Source of the DNA: Kiritimatiellia bacterium | GTDB lineage: Bacteria; Verrucomicrobiota; Kiritimatiellia; RFP12; UBA1067 | Assembly: GCA_017631385.1 (NCBI GenBank) | Contig: JAGBTH010000010.1 | Coordinates: 1-35,953 of the forward strand | Direction: 5' to 3' | DNA: 35,953 nucleotides | Part shown: positions 1-30,216 of the stretch, piece after piece | Layout: every line of letters starts with the position of its first letter | Numbering within the stretch: position 1 is the stretch's first letter | Notes under the pieces: model-generated | Seen by the model: only the letters and a program-made list of their open reading frames with translations | Database searches by the model: none | Told to the model about the DNA's origin: nothing | Made by a program: the position numbers and the translations under genes

Positions 1-174
1 GCGCAGCTACTTGTCTTGATTGAGAAGCACAAAACCGAACGACGAGATCGAGTGACAGCGTCCCAACCGCAGCACTACCTTCAAGAGCTCAAAGGTAAAA
101 AGTGCGCACCACAAGCCAAAGAGGTGCGCACCTCCAGGGTAAAAGGTGCGCACCTTTTATCTTCGAGCTCGTGA
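1..174 (+). CDS. C-terminal tail of an unidentified protein (cut by window edge)
   Basis: Frame 1 is open from the first base to a TGA at 172-174, giving about 57 residues that begin AQLLVLIEKHKTERRDRV and end in a run of serines. The first 30 or so residues look like genuine amphipathic, charged coding sequence. The rest runs straight through three copies of a GTGCGCAC palindrome, read as KCAP, EVRTS and KGAHL in three different frames, so that part is shaped by a DNA element rather than by protein selection. I do not recognise the family. A transposase or recombinase tail next to its own binding sites is a possibility, but that is a guess from the neighbouring repeats only. The true start lies outside the window. 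Confidence 0.4.
   Translation, partial: AQLLVLIEKHKTERRDRVTASQPQHYLQELKGKKCAPQAKEVRTSRVKGAHLLSSSS
94..159. repeat. Three GTGCGCAC palindromes at exact 22-bp spacing
   Basis: The 8-bp palindrome GTGCGCAC occurs at 102-109, 124-131 and 146-153, each 22 bp apart. Symmetry grows towards the right: the second copy is a 14-bp palindrome (121-134) and the third an exact 20-bp palindrome (140-159, centred on GTGCGCAC). The first and third also share the 5' flank GGTAAAA. Because 22 is not a multiple of three, the word is translated in three frames by the overlapping reading frame, so conservation must be at DNA level. The period equals about two helical turns, which would put bound proteins on one face. 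Confidence 0.85.
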
Positions 175-221
175 AGGCATCAAAAAATTCGATTTAGACC
201 ACGCAAAGCATTATAAAATTA

Positions 222-415
222 GGTGAAAAAACTCTCTATTGCTGGTGAAAGCATTTGAAATGACGTCATTTCACGATAAAGAGACGTCTTTTCAAAGAGA
301 AATGACGCCATTTCTTAGAGAAGAGACGTCATTTCAAGTGCTTTCATACGCACCATCCAACTACTTTCACCTGCACCAGACAATTCTTTCACCTATAACC
401 CCAAGAACTTTCACC
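222..415. repeat. GGTGAAAR/CTTTCACC words at 22-bp spacing, inverted about a central array
   Basis: GGTGAAAA at 222-229 and GGTGAAAG at 244-251 are 22 bp apart. The same word in inverse orientation, CTTTCACC, is found at 364-371, 386-393 and 408-415, again exactly 22 bp apart. A degenerate copy, CTTTCATA, lies at 341-348. Together they flank the TGACGTCA array at 257-335, so the whole block has left arms pointing inward and right arms pointing inward. Function unknown. This layout recalls ends of transposable elements or replication/partition sites, but no known consensus is matched. Confidence 0.8.
257..335. repeat. Four 16-bp palindromic units (TGACGTCA core) at exact 21-bp spacing
   Basis: Units begin at 257, 278, 299 and 320: GAAATGACGTCATTTC (perfect 16-bp palindrome), AAAGAGACGTCTTTTC, GAAATGACGCCATTTC and GAAGAGACGTCATTTC. 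Each is separated from the next by a 5-bp spacer of unrelated sequence. The GACGTC or GACGCC core falls at 262, 283, 304 and 325. A plus-strand reading frame over 239-502 translates the array into a seven-residue repeat (MTSFHDK-like), but that is the expected by-product of a 21-bp period and I do not regard it as a gene. Confidence 0.9.
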
Positions 416-616
416 TTATTCCACCAACCAAATCAATTCTTATATTTCGACTTGTCTATTTCAACAATCGCCTTATTAAATTTCTCTTTCACAAGACGGT
501 AGTTGTTACTTAACTAAAAACCAAGTCTGCATCTCACCGTCGCCGCGATGAGACCATGCGAAATATGGAATGAGTTTAGCTTCGCCAGAATTCGACCTCA
601 CTAAAAACGCCGGATA
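416..616. other. Gene-free AT-rich stretch
   Basis: No supported gene, RNA or promoter is seen here. One further CTTTCAC word occurs at 486-492, off the 22-bp phase of the preceding copies by half a period. Sequence from about 500 onward loses the repeat character. Confidence 0.5.
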
Positions 617-708: not shown

Positions 709-1572
709 CTAACAAATTCTATCGCCCCAAAAAGCGACTTTGACATTAGCATTCACGCTTTTAGCTTTTTTTAGAGCTCGCTTAATAAGGGGAGCGTCTA
801 ATCTCGATGAACTATGGGCTAATTCCCAGAGATGTCCAAAGACCACCTTTTTAGGTTGTATCTTTTTAATCGCAGTAGCTACTTTAATTCCGCACCCTGG
901 GAAAAACGTCCATACATCAGGTGAACCGTTACTTGTTTTTAACTTATCAGCTACACCACAGTCCCCTGTATGATAAAACTTCCAGTTGCCAACACGAATT
1001 TCAAAGGCGGTTGTGAAATCTAAAAGATATTTATTATGATCCACTAATGAGGTAGAAATCTCAACATCTTTTATGCGAAATGTTTTTTCGCCCATTACAA
1101 ACCCGCCGCCGATAGAATTTTCATTTCGCTTACTATGAGCCCCGTAATTATCAAGAAAATTCGATATTACCGTTTTACTGGCGGAATTAAGCTTTTTATA
1201 TAATTCAATATCACAATGATCGCTATGATTATGCGTTATTAGTGCAAAGTCGAGCTTATCGGCCAATTCAATGGCTCTACGATGAATTAAATCTATCGAA
1301 AATAAGGATTCCTTCGTTTTAATGAGATAACCCATATTATATACACTCCAAATGGCGGGTGTATCAACAATTACAGTTTTAGATACCTCATCTAGGACTC
1401 GCTCGAAAGCACGCTCAAGTTTTTCTAATGAAGCTAATGAGCGCGTATTGCCATCACGCATATACTCTCGATAAGTTTCAGCCGAAACTAGCTCAGTTTC
1501 TCGTTGCCACTGATCTATATTAGAGAACAACTTTTTAGTAGCTGAATCTAAAATTTCTTCTTTTTTATCCAT
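709..1572 (-). CDS. MBL-fold metallo-hydrolase, UlaG-like
   Basis: A 287-residue protein of the metallo-beta-lactamase fold. The zinc-binding signature HNHSDH is at residues 114-119, followed by further likely ligands H179, the HTGD segment at 201-204 and H247. The arrangement resembles the UlaG-like branch (L-ascorbate-6-phosphate lactonase relatives) that hydrolyse phosphodiesters, lactones or similar small substrates; the actual substrate cannot be read from the sequence. The first 65 residues are helical and precede the fold. No signal peptide, so probably cytoplasmic. The ATG is preceded by AAGAG and lies only 5 bp after the debranching-enzyme stop, so it is very likely the last gene of the infC-to-MBL operon. 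Identity of the fold is confident, the function is not. Confidence 0.85.
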   Translation of the reverse strand: MDKKEEILDSATKKLFSNIDQWQRETELVSAETYREYMRDGNTRSLASLEKLERAFERVLDEVSKTVIVDTPAIWSVYNMGYLIKTKESLFSIDLIHRRAIELADKLDFALITHNHSDHCDIELYKKLNSASKTVISNFLDNYGAHSKRNENSIGGGFVMGEKTFRIKDVEISTSLVDHNKYLLDFTTAFEIRVGNWKFYHTGDCGVADKLKTSNGSPDVWTFFPGCGIKVATAIKKIQPKKVVFGHLWELAHSSSRLDAPLIKRALKKAKSVNANVKVAFWGDRIC

Positions 1573-4500: not shown

Positions 4501-5462
4501 AGCATAAAGATAGTATCAGGATACTCTTCTCGAACGCGGCAAACGATATATTCCCAAGTCTCAGCAGGAATCATATACCCAGCATCACACCTAAAGCCAT
4601 CTACACCATTACGACACCAAAATAGAAACACATCTGCCATATAGGCTCTAAGCTCAGCATTGGAATAATCAAGCTCAACTAAATCAGCCCACTTAACCCC
4701 CCATGCGCCAGGCGAGATGAACCTACCGTCAGTTTCGCGGTTAAACCATTCAGGATGATGAGTCTGCAATGTTGAAGCCCAACCTGTATGATTAGCAGGC
4801 AAATCCACAAAAAAGAGACCCTTACGAGAATGAACCGCATCAATGAGTTCGCGGAACTGGTCTAAGGGAGTAGCGTATTCATCAAATTCAGCCATCGCTG
4901 GATCTACAGAATAAAAATCAAGCGAAGCGAAAGGACAGCCATATTCGCCCATTACCGCGTATGTTGTCGGAACGGGGAATGGCGGCAAAGTCTGAATAAG
5001 ACGAAAGCCCATCTTATCCATAATAACAGGGAGCTTACGTACTACTTCACGAAATGAACCAAACTGACGCGGAAAAACCGTATATATCGAGTTGCTCTTT
5101 CGAATAGTTTCGCTCTCAACTTTTATATGAGTATTACGCCCTTCGGGCCATTCGGGAACATTAGAGCCTTCTGGGAAAAAGCACGCCTTACCAGAAAATA
5201 TACCAACCTCATCTAGAGAAATTTCAGCCGAAAAAACACCTGGCTTTACTTCTGAAAGCGGAATATCAGTCCACGCTTTCGCCATCGGAGTTTCGCCGCG
5301 CTCAGTCTCGGCGATTATCTCGCGCCTACGAATACTGGCATTACCAATATTAGTTCTGAACGCCGCACGACCTTTACGAGGTCTATCTAACTCTAGAGTA
5401 ACCGTAAGCTTATCGCCGCGCCACTTTAAAATAAAGTCATCTGGATTCGGTATCTGTCTCAT
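1578..5462 (-). CDS. Bifunctional glycogen debranching enzyme (GH13 plus GH133 domains)
   Basis: A 1294-residue protein with two catalytic modules. The N-terminal half is an alpha-amylase-like (GH13) barrel: the nucleophile segment DGFRCDAG puts the aspartate near residue 293, the acid/base glutamate is in FMLEG near 322, and the third carboxylate is in THDND near 381. The C-terminal 370 or so residues match the amylo-alpha-1,6-glucosidase (GH133) domain, with WFLDWGRDTF, ENGTLPNIIYG, DTTDAQLW and YHNGTVWAWP segments. This is the architecture of eukaryotic-type debranching enzymes, which move a short glucan (4-alpha-glucanotransferase) and then hydrolyse the alpha-1,6 stub. I chose the ATG at 5462 because it overlaps the murG stop as ATGA; a TTG four codons upstream is less likely. 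It fits with glgA about 5 kb away in glycogen turnover. Confidence 0.9.
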   Translation of the reverse strand: MRQIPNPDDFILKWRGDKLTVTLELDRPRKGRAAFRTNIGNASIRRREIIAETERGETPMAKAWTDIPLSEVKPGVFSAEISLDEVGIFSGKACFFPEGSNVPEWPEGRNTHIKVESETIRKSNSIYTVFPRQFGSFREVVRKLPVIMDKMGFRLIQTLPPFPVPTTYAVMGEYGCPFASLDFYSVDPAMAEFDEYATPLDQFRELIDAVHSRKGLFFVDLPANHTGWASTLQTHHPEWFNRETDGRFISPGAWGVKWADLVELDYSNAELRAYMADVFLFWCRNGVDGFRCDAGYMIPAETWEYIVCRVREEYPDTIFMLEGLGGELKVTDRLLAETNLDWAYSEIFQTYDRDHFEWYLPGAIERSEKYGALVHFAETHDNDRLAKGGEIYAKLRVQLAALLSWQGAWGIANGVEWFAKEKIDVHGKNDLNWGASSNMVDLISKLNLILDTDPTFAGPCNLELITQGAGNTLAVVRKSADKNLSNARKLLIVANLDCNNATRIEWDKNKFSSKEVLDLITGKKLSALGSIELGPGEVMCLIGPASPKVNAEVAAKELKPDVFKFHWQFPRDVKREVVVPSGEIVRVSAPFHFRFHLVDPIRGRTLSAAASSYANGEHFSEFKSPIYEGDGTKCRALNLRMVVYTPNKATRTISKVLIPPSSEVARALISLNREEVRKNGDFRTILSNGSGAASQMRLAWGTIASQYDAILAANPNANCPSDRLNVWTRMRCWLQREGYTREFDARSTAKFVADPRGETARWEFNMPCGMGKTTAFVFELSLAKGYNAARLKVTRSDAGENDVGDQVRVVFRPDIEWRSFHSTTKAYAGLEELFPRSVSPSPRGFAFHPYDGDFVMSVDNGEYHHEPEWVYNVSHIEEARRGQEPSGDLFSPGWISADFKVGESVTIIGETIGVGATRRGDEKLVFPDSDNNAPRSLSISETLKKSLDLFIVKRDDLKTVIAGYPWFLDWGRDTFIFMRGMIAAGKIDDSIAILKAFAAFEENGTLPNIIYGTTAGNRDTTDAQLWFIRCVQELDALGVRKFDIAALKKTCESIVDNYIKGTPNGIRVDKASSLVYSPSHFTWMDTNYPACTPRQGYPIEIQALWISALKYLNRGEMAEKALDSVKKYFKRPYGGYYDCLAATNGESAAQSRPEDTIRPNELFLITLGILDDVSILAETEELLIPGGVRSLEAGNALYKGVYEGDEDTSRKPAYHNGTVWAWPFALFAEALVMTKSTSPEVALQLLAGAVENINAGCIAHMSENADGDAPHAQKGCTAQAWSVSELLRVWLKFS

Positions 5463-24969: not shown

Positions 24970-27750
24970 CTATTCCATACACCATGAAGGAGGCAAATCA
25001 TCTATAACGATAACCCCTTCCGGCCAAACATTTCCTTTGTCGAAAAGCGTAATCTTCTTCGATTGCGGCGATCCGCCTTTCGCATGGGCAAGCACAGTCT
25101 TCGCGGCACTACTCCACTTAATCCCCTGTAACTCGATCGCGCCTGGCTGCCTATCGGGATTCTTAGCCGGGTCCGTATTCGCAGGAAGAGAAAGTGAGCG
25201 CATATCAAATACATCCACAAGGCTTTGAGACCCGCTGACCGCACACCCATAAAAACCAATTTTCCCGACATTGTAAGCGCCAAGTTTCAAAAATGCGATA
25301 TCAGACCCGGTTTTAACCTTGCAGTCCTTGAAAAACAGTTGCGCGGGCTTCTCCCAGTAATTGCCGCGAACCGTAGCACCGTCAAAACTGCAATCCGCAA
25401 TTTTCATATCCGTTGAATCCAAGCCGAATATGGACGAGTTCAAAAACTCACATTTCCTGGCTGTTATCTTTCCGCCGTTGAACCGCTCCAGTTTTGTATT
25501 CTCAAAACGGCAACGCTCCCAATCGTGCGTTCGATAGAATCGCGAAAACTTCGAATCCTTCACCGTCACCTCAAACCAGCGCCCGTCGGGAAACGGCTTA
25601 TACGTGCTGGCGTCTGTACAGTTCTCGAAAGTGCAGGCGTATGCATTGGCTATACTTACGGGCATATTCTTAAAGGTGCAATTCACGACACGCCCGGCGG
25701 GACCCGTTTCAATGGAAAAAGACTGCTTCTTCCCGTCGAAAGAATCCCCAGAAAGAACATGGTCCCAGCTGTCAGCTCTAACCTTAATTTCATTCAATCC
25801 AAGCTGAACCCCGACAGTATAAGTATTTCCGTTGAATCTCCCATATCCCGAACGGAGGCGAGAGTCGCACCAGTACGTCCCCTTTCCGATTTTACTGTTC
25901 CTCACGCACGGGGAATGGGTTCTACCCCAGAAATAAATGTCGCCGTCATTGTTCTCAAGAATAAAATTATGACCCGCGCATGTAAGAATCGAATTGTTCA
26001 CGGGATTATCGCGGAAAACGTTACGGGTGAAATAAACGTCCTGCATCTGGTCCCATCCGTCTTCAGCGTCGAATGCGCAGCGAGCGGCGCTCTCGCCGGA
26101 GCGGGTAAAATAATTTCCTTCAAAGAGCATATTCTTCATCGCCGAAGCCGCGTAACCCACACAACGGCAATTCTCAAAACGGCAATTCTTTACGGTGCAG
26201 TTCACAGGAAGACGAAACGCCATCGCCATAAGGCCCGACTTATCGGCGGCTTCTACGCTTTCAGCCTCAACGGAGACCCGCAAAAACGCGGCGTTTTCAG
26301 GGATCCACATTTCGCGGTACTGCCACGCCGTCTCTGCGGAGATGAAATTCTTCCCGGCATCAAACCATGCGACTGTCATCTGCCATGATCGTGTTGCAAT
26401 ACCCTGATATCCGAGCAGCTTAGATATCTGAAGCCTCCTGCGGCCATATTTTCCGGTTATCTTGCTGAGGTCCTTAAAATCGGTCGTAAACCTGAATGTA
26501 TCAGAAGTATCGATCTTCCCCGTCTTTCGATCTATCCCGCCGGGAGAAAACTTCGGCAATGATTCGTAAAAGAACGTAAGCCACCCTTTCGAATCTTCAG
26601 CAACGCCATTCTGTCCGCCATACCCCGTAATGTCGACGATATTAACGTTTTCAACAGAGCAATACCAGCAGTCACCACCTATCTGAAATCCCGCAGGCCA
26701 CTCTGAATTTTTCGGAGACCTTAAATAATCGTGCGACCAATAGTCACCTTCCAAAGTCCCTCCGACAAGATGGGAATCCGTTACGCTTTCAAATTTCACC
26801 AAAACGGAATACGCGCCCGTGAAACCGTTTTGCTTGATAACCGCCCTGTTGAGATCGAGCGTCATGCCGTTTGGAATGCTGATTGATTTTTTATGCGAGA
26901 GGCGATAAATACCGGGCAGCATCACGACTTTACGAAATCCTTCCGCCGCCTTATCATCAAGCAACTTCTGAATTCCCTCGGCCGTAGACAGCGAAGCCGC
27001 TTCCACCGCCGCCTTGTCATAACCCTCGTCATACACGACTTTCGCCTTCTGAAACGCTCTGTACGGCAATTTGCCGGTCTTCGGATCGAACGCTACGGTA
27101 ACGGTATACCCCGGAACGTCGGAGCGCTTCTCTTTAATAACTTCCGATTTGCCGTCCGTCCCTACATAGACGATCTTCTCAAAACCTCCATCGTTGCGGA
27201 TGCCGTATTTCGCGAGATCACCTTCGCTCATCGCATAGGTTTTTTCGCTTTGAATCAAAAGATCGGATTCTTTAACAACGCGAAAATCATGGATGACGCG
27301 GTGGGATTCGCGCCCTTTGTCATCACATGCCCAGACACGGAACTCGTAATCGCCAAGCGGCAATACTCCGAGAGTAAATTCAGCGTCCCCGCTTTTTATA
27401 TTTTTCAACGAAACGGTTTTCGATTCTCCTCCCTTGCGCCGATATTCAAGTAACGCGTCGAACGTGTGAGAGTCGTCGAGAAATCTGATTTTAGACGATT
27501 CAAAATCCGTTACGAAAACCCCTACCTTGACGGTCTCCCCTTCAATGACCGTCGGCTTCACGTAATATGTCGAAATATAAGGGTATTTAAGTCCCTCAGG
27601 CGTCTGATAGCCGTCTTTCTTCTCGAGAGCCTCTTTCATCGCCGTAGGATCGGTAAGATATCCCGGCAAAACCGCTCGCGCGAACAGCGAATCTGACGCA
27701 AGCGTCAACGATGCGACACATAAAATGAAATTCCGTAATCTTGAATTCAT
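24970..27750 (-). CDS. Giant secreted right-handed beta-helix protein
   Basis: 926 residues. Signal peptide at about 1-24; an Ig/FN3-like beta-domain with GETVKVGVFVTDFESSKIRFLDDSHTF (about 70-165); then a pectate-lyase-like parallel beta-helix. It begins with a PGIYRLSHKKSISIPNGMTLDLNRAVIKQNG segment, the classic cap of such folds (a pectate-lyase-3-like beginning), and continues through repeated short turns such as VKNCRFENCRCVG, VVNCTFKNMPVSI and ARKCEFLNSSIFG. A roughly 120-residue beta-rich insertion (about 410-520) interrupts the helix. Candidate polysaccharide lyase, hydrolase or glycan-binding protein; no family-specific catalytic pair could be identified. ATG has a perfect AAGGAG seven bases upstream and lies 33 bp after the preceding gene, so the two are one operon. 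Confidence 0.8.
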   Translation of the reverse strand: MNSRLRNFILCVASLTLASDSLFARAVLPGYLTDPTAMKEALEKKDGYQTPEGLKYPYISTYYVKPTVIEGETVKVGVFVTDFESSKIRFLDDSHTFDALLEYRRKGGESKTVSLKNIKSGDAEFTLGVLPLGDYEFRVWACDDKGRESHRVIHDFRVVKESDLLIQSEKTYAMSEGDLAKYGIRNDGGFEKIVYVGTDGKSEVIKEKRSDVPGYTVTVAFDPKTGKLPYRAFQKAKVVYDEGYDKAAVEAASLSTAEGIQKLLDDKAAEGFRKVVMLPGIYRLSHKKSISIPNGMTLDLNRAVIKQNGFTGAYSVLVKFESVTDSHLVGGTLEGDYWSHDYLRSPKNSEWPAGFQIGGDCWYCSVENVNIVDITGYGGQNGVAEDSKGWLTFFYESLPKFSPGGIDRKTGKIDTSDTFRFTTDFKDLSKITGKYGRRRLQISKLLGYQGIATRSWQMTVAWFDAGKNFISAETAWQYREMWIPENAAFLRVSVEAESVEAADKSGLMAMAFRLPVNCTVKNCRFENCRCVGYAASAMKNMLFEGNYFTRSGESAARCAFDAEDGWDQMQDVYFTRNVFRDNPVNNSILTCAGHNFILENNDGDIYFWGRTHSPCVRNSKIGKGTYWCDSRLRSGYGRFNGNTYTVGVQLGLNEIKVRADSWDHVLSGDSFDGKKQSFSIETGPAGRVVNCTFKNMPVSIANAYACTFENCTDASTYKPFPDGRWFEVTVKDSKFSRFYRTHDWERCRFENTKLERFNGGKITARKCEFLNSSIFGLDSTDMKIADCSFDGATVRGNYWEKPAQLFFKDCKVKTGSDIAFLKLGAYNVGKIGFYGCAVSGSQSLVDVFDMRSLSLPANTDPAKNPDRQPGAIELQGIKWSSAAKTVLAHAKGGSPQSKKITLFDKGNVWPEGVIVIDDLPPSWCME

Positions 27751-27783: not shown

Positions 27784-30216
27784 TTAACGAACGATTACGC
27801 GCATTCCGCGTGATCCTGCCGGCTGAACTTCACCATACTTAAAAATATCCGTATCTCCCGTGTTCATCGCCTTGAATTCAGCCGCAACCCATTCAGCACT
27901 CTTGGAGCCCTTTGAAAAACGGACTTCATCGATCCAGCCGTTCCAAGCGGCATCACCAACCGCTCCCGAAGCGACATCGCAGTTATTCCCGAAAACGAGC
28001 GGTGAATCGTTGTCGATACAAGCCGTAATTGACGATTCGCCGACTTTTATTCCGTTCTCATAAACAAAGCATTTTTGATTGTCAAAAACAAAAGTCAAAT
28101 AAGCCCAATCACGCAAGTTGCCGGAACATGTCGCGGAATTTCCGCCTGCACCAGAGCCGCGAGGCATCGGGCTTGGTTTATCAACCTGGGAATTGCACTC
28201 GATCGCAAAAGCATTATTAGGTAACTTTGTATTGCTGTTATCCGAACTTTTGCGCTTATAAAAGATGTGATCCCAATAGTAATCAAAATCGCCATGCTTA
28301 AACCACCCGGAAATCGTGAAATTCTTGCCGCCGTCAACAGGACTATTTTCCCCGGAATCGTTTACCCATACTCCGCCGCAGTTGAAATAGCCCACTTGCT
28401 TGCCAGTAGAGTCATTAACACGGAAAGACTTGCCGAAACGCCCTGGCTCACCTGCTTTAGCATATTGAGCGACATGTCCGTCAATGCCTTTAACTTCAGT
28501 TGAATTTGCGTATGTGCCATAAGAGTGTTCAACCGCCGCCGCAGTCGCATCGTTCAAGTGCCAAACGCCCACATATTCGCTCCATACGTCGTGGGGCTCC
28601 TCTGATGAGATTGCACCATAGCCGTAGTACATCTTGATTTTCGTCTGCGCGGCGGCCGACGGAATCTTTACCCAAATGAGAGATTCTCCCTTTGTGTTCC
28701 AAGAGTCAACCTCATGAGGGATAGGCTTATCGTTTTCATCAACGAACATCATATCTTCACCGTTTGCGAGACTAAACTGCGAATAACGAAATCCGGGGAT
28801 TGTCGCCTCACTTAATTTAACAAGTGCAGGCAACCCGGCAATGGTCTCTTCGCCGCTGTAAAGATCGCTGCGCAAAGTTATCTCGATAAACTTTCTGAAT
28901 TCTTTCAACTTTGGCGTAGTCCGCTTCCTTGTATATGTCGCCGAGACGACTCCGCTCGACGCTTTCCCCTCAGCGTATGCCCGCGCCTTTACGGTTACGG
29001 TAGATGAAATCTCAAAAGGCGTTGTATAAAGTTCACTTGATTCCGTAGGATTTGAGCCGTCAGTCGTATAATAAATCTTCGCGCCCTCGGTAGCGCAAGT
29101 AAGCGCTACATTCATCGTCGGGAAGAAAATTGAACCAGACACCACTGCAAATTGAGGATTATCAACAACATCGCCGACTTCATAGCACCCGATCGACGGC
29201 GGGTCGGAAAAGCTGACGCCGTCCAAATCAAGACCGATTCCTTCGTAAACGGTGCCTGCGCCGATACAAGGCGATGCAGACGACAAATGATAGTCGCCGT
29301 TCTCCGTATCGACAAAAAGAGGATCTACTCCCACGAGATTGCAGGACGATTCAGACAAAAGTTCGCCTGAAAGTTCCGAATCTTCAATGTCGGCTTTATT
29401 ATTATAAATAATAGTATTTGTAGCCTGTATCTTATGATTCCAACTGCCGTCATATATGCCGCCGCCCTTTGATCCGGCAACATTTTCCGTAACAGTCGTG
29501 TTGCGAAATGTGATAATGGGATTACCATACTCCACAACACACCCTCCGCCATTGCCAGACGGCGCTGAATTTCCAGAAATGAGGCACGTATCAATCAATA
29601 TAGCGCTTGAAACCTTGTAGATACCGATACCACCTCCATGACTCGCTCCGCCGCCGTTCGCATAAGACGAGTTGCCCGTTATTATGGAATGTTCAATTAC
29701 ACCGCCTGCGCCTTCATAAAACCCCACACCGGCACCGAAGACATTATTGACCCCAACATTCTGATATGTCGCATCACCTAACTGATTGCCGGTAATACGG
29801 CATCGGGAAACCGTCCCGTTATCAACTAACACACCAGCGCCGGCGAGCCACTTTGCACGAATATGACCGCCTGTCAAAGTCACCCCCTTGATTGTTGCTC
29901 CGCCGTTCACTGTCGCACAACGACCATTACCCTCATTATCTCCTTCAACTCCTATTGTTGTCTGCTTGATGATGGTTTTCTCCCATCCCTGTCCGACGAG
30001 CGTCACTCCCCCGGACACCATCAGCTGAGAGTTAATTTCAAACATGCCTTCTCCAAGCGTCACCGTTCCAGGAACCGCTTCCTTCGCAGCCGCGTCAAGC
30101 GCGGATTGAATCACAGTCGTATTTTCCGCCGGATCGTCAGAAGGTGAAATTACATCAGAAAATACCGTCCCGACGGTACCAAGAATTGCCGACAATAACA
30201 GGAACTTCAGTTTCAC
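27784..30216 (-). CDS. Secreted beta-helix / chitobiase-C / DUF2341 / LamG-like multidomain protein
   Basis: 810 residues from a GTG start with GAAAGGAC upstream. Order: signal peptide (about 1-20); right-handed beta-helix (about 25-345) rich in GGGI/GGGA turns, such as SHGGGIGIYKVSSAILIDTCLI; a chitobiase C-terminal-like domain with YYTTDGSNPTESSELYTTP; a DUF2341 domain (about 440-545: GLPALVKLSEATIPGF and YYGYGAISS); and a concanavalin-A/LamG-like domain (about 550-795) with FTISGWFKHGDF and GWIDEVRFSKGSKSAEWV. The C-terminus ends GSRGMRVIVR. This build is typical of large surface or secreted adhesins and glycan-handling proteins of PVC bacteria. First gene of the operon, divergent from the histidine kinase. 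Confidence 0.85.
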   Translation of the reverse strand: MKLKFLLLSAILGTVGTVFSDVISPSDDPAENTTVIQSALDAAAKEAVPGTVTLGEGMFEINSQLMVSGGVTLVGQGWEKTIIKQTTIGVEGDNEGNGRCATVNGGATIKGVTLTGGHIRAKWLAGAGVLVDNGTVSRCRITGNQLGDATYQNVGVNNVFGAGVGFYEGAGGVIEHSIITGNSSYANGGGASHGGGIGIYKVSSAILIDTCLISGNSAPSGNGGGCVVEYGNPIITFRNTTVTENVAGSKGGGIYDGSWNHKIQATNTIIYNNKADIEDSELSGELLSESSCNLVGVDPLFVDTENGDYHLSSASPCIGAGTVYEGIGLDLDGVSFSDPPSIGCYEVGDVVDNPQFAVVSGSIFFPTMNVALTCATEGAKIYYTTDGSNPTESSELYTTPFEISSTVTVKARAYAEGKASSGVVSATYTRKRTTPKLKEFRKFIEITLRSDLYSGEETIAGLPALVKLSEATIPGFRYSQFSLANGEDMMFVDENDKPIPHEVDSWNTKGESLIWVKIPSAAAQTKIKMYYGYGAISSEEPHDVWSEYVGVWHLNDATAAAVEHSYGTYANSTEVKGIDGHVAQYAKAGEPGRFGKSFRVNDSTGKQVGYFNCGGVWVNDSGENSPVDGGKNFTISGWFKHGDFDYYWDHIFYKRKSSDNSNTKLPNNAFAIECNSQVDKPSPMPRGSGAGGNSATCSGNLRDWAYLTFVFDNQKCFVYENGIKVGESSITACIDNDSPLVFGNNCDVASGAVGDAAWNGWIDEVRFSKGSKSAEWVAAEFKAMNTGDTDIFKYGEVQPAGSRGMRVIVR

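Follow-up and report, generated by a model that had tools for sequence, protein, structure and literature searches.

Two-turn phased intergenic arrays in a Kiritimatiellia genome as predicted operator copies of DUF4469/HU-HIG proteins

At the start of the DNA studied here (Kiritimatiellia bacterium, contig JAGBTH010000010.1; the whole stretch of 35,953 nucleotides that was analysed is called the window) several short words recur at intervals of two helical turns, which raises the question of what kind of element they form and which protein might read them. All of the words picked out by a sequence-only reading of this DNA were found at their positions with spacings of 21 and 22 bp, and that reading was right both that the DNA rather than a protein is under selection and that the inverse words of the composite array lie symmetrically about a palindrome block. 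The cut-off reading frame that it placed at 1-174 is not a gene, as positions 9-429 are a non-coding repeat that recurs elsewhere in the genome. The functional direction of the element is the minus strand, on which the order is GGTGAAAG three times (22 bp), the palindromic GACGTC four times (21 bp), CTTTCACC twice and GTGCGCAC three times (22 bp). The features are as follows.

9..429, minus strand: window copy of the dispersed intergenic element, subfamily 1; the low side is cut by the contig end; 83-87% identity to L065, L050, L044 and others in the same genome
78..177, minus strand: A module, an imperfect palindrome of 100 bp with GTGCGCAC three times at 22-bp spacing; ~26 copies genome-wide
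102..109, no strand: GTGCGCAC word 1
124..131, no strand: GTGCGCAC word 2
146..153, no strand: GTGCGCAC word 3
222..250, minus strand: arm with CTTTCACC words (minus-strand reading) at 22 bp; on the plus strand GGTGAAA at 222 and 244
257..340, no strand: B block, GACGTC/GACGCC palindromes four times at 262, 283, 304 and 325 (21 bp); unit 1 is GAAATGACGTCATTTC
364..415, minus strand: arm with GGTGAAAG words (minus-strand reading) at 22 bp; on the plus strand TTTCACC at 365, 387 and 409
709..1572, minus strand: neighbouring gene, metal-dependent-hydrolase-like (weak match to PRK00685, E 1.4e-5, below the cut-off)

The neighbouring gene lies upstream of the element in the element's reading direction, with its end 280 bp away. 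Elsewhere in the window two large reading frames of 926 and 810 amino acids are adjacent on the minus strand (24970-27750 and 27784-30216); a scan of both against NCBIfam gave nothing save a weak DUF499 anti-phage-type match in the 810-residue frame.

The window element is one of many. Its own genome (G000), a MAG of 2.0 Mb in 183 contigs that is 74% complete, contains around 14 diverged copies of subfamily 1, the window copy included, with identities of 75-87% and all of them between genes. A second subfamily, also of some 14 copies, has the GTGCGCAC module in common with the first but different flanks. When triple arrays of GTGCGCAC at exactly 22 bp were searched for with up to three mismatches, G000 gave 13 of them and none with the pattern reversed as a control, which excludes chance as their origin. 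Some 13 other intergenic places carry the composite, complete or partial, with its geometry intact. No description of this repeated element was found, in line with the suggestion that it was undescribed. Many contigs of G000 (C45, C131, C153, C173, C56 and C66) start or stop within a GTGCGCAC array; these arrays have probably broken the assembly, so that the copy numbers are lower bounds. By IF-2, the nearest named relative of G000 is an uncultured Verrucomicrobia MAG with 88% identity across the C-terminal half, from which we assign the organism to that phylum.

The phasing is kept at the other copies. Across the F-B-R core, aligned for 11 copies over 151 columns, pairs of copies differ by 16% on average; the 1661 cells hold 175 substitutions and not one gap, and the spacers vary more than the words. 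Within the B units, positions related by the dyad co-vary beyond shuffles at two offsets (31/44 against 22.6 and 29/44 against 20.4), values that are inflated by the relatedness of the copies; the covariation points to recognition of these units as double-stranded palindromes. The central module is exchangeable, since at one locus (L053) unrelated palindromes replace the central ones between unchanged arms. A further repeat of 50-80 bp (GAGATCGAGTGACAGCGTCCCAACCG...) adjoins the array module in the window (9-90) and at L049, L065, L045 and L053, which makes the element a mosaic of separately repeated pieces. The same genome has another dispersed repeat of ~139 bp with 87-90% identity, unrelated to the arrays (L049:3844-3982; L050:3034-3173 and 4875-5013).

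The genes that flank the copies are an assortment that includes DNA ligase, UvrA, CCA/polyA polymerase, ABC-F, glutamate dehydrogenase and glycosidases. Their orientation is far from random: with the element read in its own direction, 23 of 26 upstream genes and 17 of 18 downstream genes share its strand (p ~1e-4 each, counted from crude ORF calls). No transposase was found among the 28 neighbouring genes scanned, and no replication gene adjoins the copies in the neighbours tested. A Tn7- or Mu-like transposon end was rejected on the lack of a transposase among these 28 genes and on the position of the copies, which stand singly between housekeeping genes. The transposon ends, iterons or partition site that the layout had called to mind thus find no support, the neighbours being housekeeping genes, no mobile gene travelling with the copies and no terminal inverted repeats having been found at the ends of subfamily 2 copies.

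It had also been proposed that the same gene should be found beside each array. For the dispersed copies this is not so, but both of the DUF4469/HU-HIG genes that were found sit directly behind such an array. Comparison of the flanks showed that the copies at L062 and L072 directly precede homologous genes (L062:5566-6276 and L072:604-1308), both encoding DUF4469/HU-DNA-binding proteins. Two genome searches gave these as the only DUF4469/HU-HIG genes in G000, and both have the array upstream, within ~45-75 bp of the start codon. Between the L062 operator and the window copy the identity is 86%, and the two align ungapped over 174 bp. A HU-HIG gene with a GTGCGCAC operator was sought in the 74%-complete G000 and not found; the reader of this module is probably a different HU-HIG protein, absent from the incomplete assembly.

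The two proteins match the DUF4469 Ig-like domain at 35.0 and 27.5 bits, above the cut-off of 22.6, while for the HU domain their Pfam scores fall below gathering (23.1 of 30 and 21.1 of 26.2). When a profile of the family was compared with the PDB, it matched 4fmr with an E of 2e-14 and HU proteins with an E of 8e-6. The predicted structure (pLDDT 83, pTM 0.58) also has 4fmr as its top match. With a second aligner 4fmr matches the Ig-like half (Z 14 over 106 residues, rmsd 2.5), although the matches listed by this aligner are filled by the Ig-like domain and carry little information on the HU part. The assignment of the N-terminal half to the HU superfamily is made from sequence, through the DUF4469 match and the profile matches.

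To gauge the association, HU-HIG genes were collected by protein profile alone and the 400 bp upstream of each start codon were scanned for periods of 12-40. For 42 of the 73 genes the strongest period fell at 21-23 bp and reached 31/44 matches or more, with the peak at a lag of 22. At the lower threshold of at least 27/44, 54 of the 73 have a 21-23-bp array and only 3 have another period of that strength; around 19 are without a clear upstream array. Among control genes such arrays were found for 0 of 86 in the ligA loci of the genus, 0 of 23 in the window and 1 of 73 HU-HIG neighbours. The Fisher p is 1.1e-21 against the ligA-locus and window controls (0/109) and 6e-27 against all three control sets, where the 73 genes are not fully independent, some of them being homologous to one another.

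The association is seen in a second phylum. HU-HIG-type proteins are present in 47 of the 115 genomes searched of this verrucomicrobial family, and in the Bacteroidales some though not all of the HU-HIG genes of Bacteroides caecigallinarum, Porphyromonas canoris and Prevotellaceae MAGs have 22-bp arrays, which in the last group are too frequent for the association there to prove much by itself. In the Bacteroidales comparison no phased arrays were found upstream of typical HU genes. Tandem pairs of HU-HIG genes are common, the second copy being the more diverged (L269/G084:C301 2831-4276; G086:C9 50784-52229; G028:C1 12042-13486). The arrays of Streptomyces, Synechococcus and Opitutus have the appearance of unrelated minisatellites and were set aside.

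Other DUF4469 genes of the genus also have upstream phased arrays but with different words, and in general the operator words differ between the subclades of HU-HIG proteins. The F-B-R plan belongs to one subclade, which includes both proteins of G000. In 12 of 14 genes of this subclade a TATAATG is directly adjoined by a GNCGNC unit, and the unit before this one falls between the -35 and -10 positions. Such an overlap is the layout that would be expected for autorepression. The dispersed copies of the window type have GAAATGACGTC or a similar sequence at the place of the operator's TATAATGACGTC, and the -10 box is missing; they thus keep the predicted binding words while losing the promoter at that point. 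In several of these copies, among them that of the window, a different TATAAT lies further on as a putative promoter box.

Beyond G000, copies that are similar in sequence were found in 3 of the 57 other genomes of the genus (G022, G084 and G113). The dispersed arrays of G113 follow the same plan, with four GACGTC/GGCGCC palindromes between arms of three or four words at 22 bp, while the arm word varies by locus and may be GTGTAAGC, GTGGCCAAA or GTGCACGC. As G113 keeps the plan and changes the arm words, the geometry is more invariant than the letters. The architecture of its dispersed B arrays is also that of the HU-HIG operator of the same genome. A similar correspondence is found in G055, where GTGCCCAC arrays occur at several loci, one of them the operator of a HU-HIG gene, and in Porphyromonas canoris, where the HU-HIG operator words TTGGCCAC/TTGGCCAA reappear in a dispersed array (L094). 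P. canoris additionally has long homogeneous arrays that resemble slippage products. The densest case is a Prevotellaceae MAG, SRR8387714_bin.50 (L080, L084-L129), in which GTGCGCAC forms ~30 exact triple arrays at 22 bp. The sister species G022 and G084 lack the copy behind ligA; the flanks at this junction are too diverged to align and no target-site duplication was identified there. At the L061 and L062 loci the sister genomes have other neighbours, without a clean junction.

We consider it probable (roughly 0.68) that the element in the window is a scattered copy of a phased operator array, with a DUF4469/HU-HIG protein, made up of a HU/IHF-superfamily and an Ig-like domain, as its predicted cognate. 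From the copies, their frozen spacing and architecture, the gene association and the promoter overlap, we infer binding, autorepression and a role for the scattered copies along the following lines. The HU-HIG proteins probably bind short words every 21-23 bp on one face of the helix and would fill arrays of 3-12 sites. One protein dimer may sit on each palindrome, with neighbours on the same face interacting, such that a full array would become a nucleoprotein block. At the HU-HIG gene itself, where the array overlaps the promoter, this would lead to autorepression. The scattered copies (~13, intergenic, mostly in one orientation relative to their neighbours and without the promoter box) might then act as genomic docking sites, at which the nucleoprotein block could give local control of neighbouring genes or contribute to chromosome organisation. 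The homologous spacers of the copies suggest a mobility that goes beyond what the operator explanation covers.

An alternative is a MITE-like non-autonomous element with minisatellite-type repeats, comparable to BrickBuilt and spread by some transposase, the phased words being either transposase sites or passengers. The ~28 diverged intergenic copies with spacers as well as words in common, the copy behind ligA that both sister species lack and the patchy occurrence in the genus would all fit, and MITEs with 23-bp repeats exist in P. gingivalis (PMC4596501). We nevertheless regard this as unlikely. The IS5-type terminal repeat of BrickBuilt, GAGACCTTTGCA, is absent (up to two mismatches, within 400 bp) at 18 of 19 copies, the remaining one having a two-mismatch match, and terminal inverted repeats are lacking, with the outer ends of five subfamily 2 copies matching at 3-10 of 25 positions; the terminal-repeat test covers subfamily 2 only, and the limits of subfamily 1 elements are blurred. 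A core without gaps at 16% divergence and a biased orientation also argue against a MITE, as does the finding that HU-HIG genes are preceded by arrays of this kind built from other words.

A further alternative is an element that acts as RNA, a terminator, attenuator or stability element whose modules fold into long hairpins within an untranslated region, 3' or 5'. The bias in orientation (23 same-strand cases to 3 for the upstream gene, 17 to 1 for the downstream gene) would fit this, as would the large inverted repeats followed by a T run in many copies. Compensatory change is however weak (2/15 and 2/51 pairs), the central bases of the palindromes, which would form the loop, are among the most conserved, a search of Rfam gave no family match and the arrays of other species are direct repeats, so that an RNA element seems decidedly improbable. 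Least credible of all is a neutral dispersed minisatellite without function whose copies are similar through recent duplication. The long slippage-like homogeneous arrays of P. canoris are of the kind that this would produce, but it would hardly give 11 copies with substitutions and no indels, words conserved over spacers, or a tie to one protein family in two phyla. We thus favour the phased operator array.

If this is correct, the arrays would be the first likely DNA targets for the poorly understood HU-HIG family. The association offers a predicted target for dozens of HU-HIG proteins together, with a function that can be tested directly, and explains a class of intergenic repeats, phased at 21-23 bp, which one would otherwise enter as minisatellites or MITEs. 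It also suggests that a HU-superfamily protein may recognise diverse sequence-specific words through phased arrays. More tentatively, and at somewhat less than even odds, the arrays and proteins could make up a class of paired protein-DNA systems in Verrucomicrobiota and Bacteroidota, in which each HU-HIG subclade would read its own two-turn word, the word would diversify with the protein and operator copies would colonise the genome as docking sites, serving as private chromosome-binding addresses for each lineage.

The genes behind the arrays encode HU-HIG/DUF4469 proteins of the HU/IHF superfamily (Pfam PF18291, PF14848 and PF14734; 4fmr, BVU_2165), a clade that was reportedly described in a 2017 comparative study from the Aravind group. 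For these proteins as known we found no description of DNA targets, in contrast to the targets predicted here. A literature search for GTGCGCAC arrays, DUF4469 or HU-HIG DNA targets gave nothing relevant; the clade-defining 2017 study was outside this search and an earlier mention is possible.

Of the known repeats, the BrickBuilt MITE of Porphyromonas gingivalis is dispersed and intergenic, with tandem units of 23 nt, ~20 copies and a reported promoter activity (PMC4596501). The likeness to the window-type element lies in the dispersed intergenic positions and in tandem units of about two helix turns. BrickBuilt, however, has IS5-type terminal repeats and a single-unit minisatellite, whereas the window-type element is without such ends and has mixed words, inverted arms around a palindrome block and a core with zero indels. 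Membership of BrickBuilt was rejected on the absence of its end sequence. REP and BIME sequences are likewise dispersed intergenic palindromes, in which proteins of the HU/IHF superfamily are partly involved. REPs are single palindromes of 20-40 bp, while here there are phased arrays of 170-400 bp with words that change from one protein subclade to another. Multi-site transposon ends of the TnsB/MuA type and iterons share repeated sites with spacing of the 22-bp class, but are distinguished from the present copies by the transposase or replication gene that none of the neighbours tested provides. Autoregulated operators and dispersed intergenic repeats are each known, while phased, word-variable arrays tied to a clade of the HU superfamily in two phyla appear to be new.
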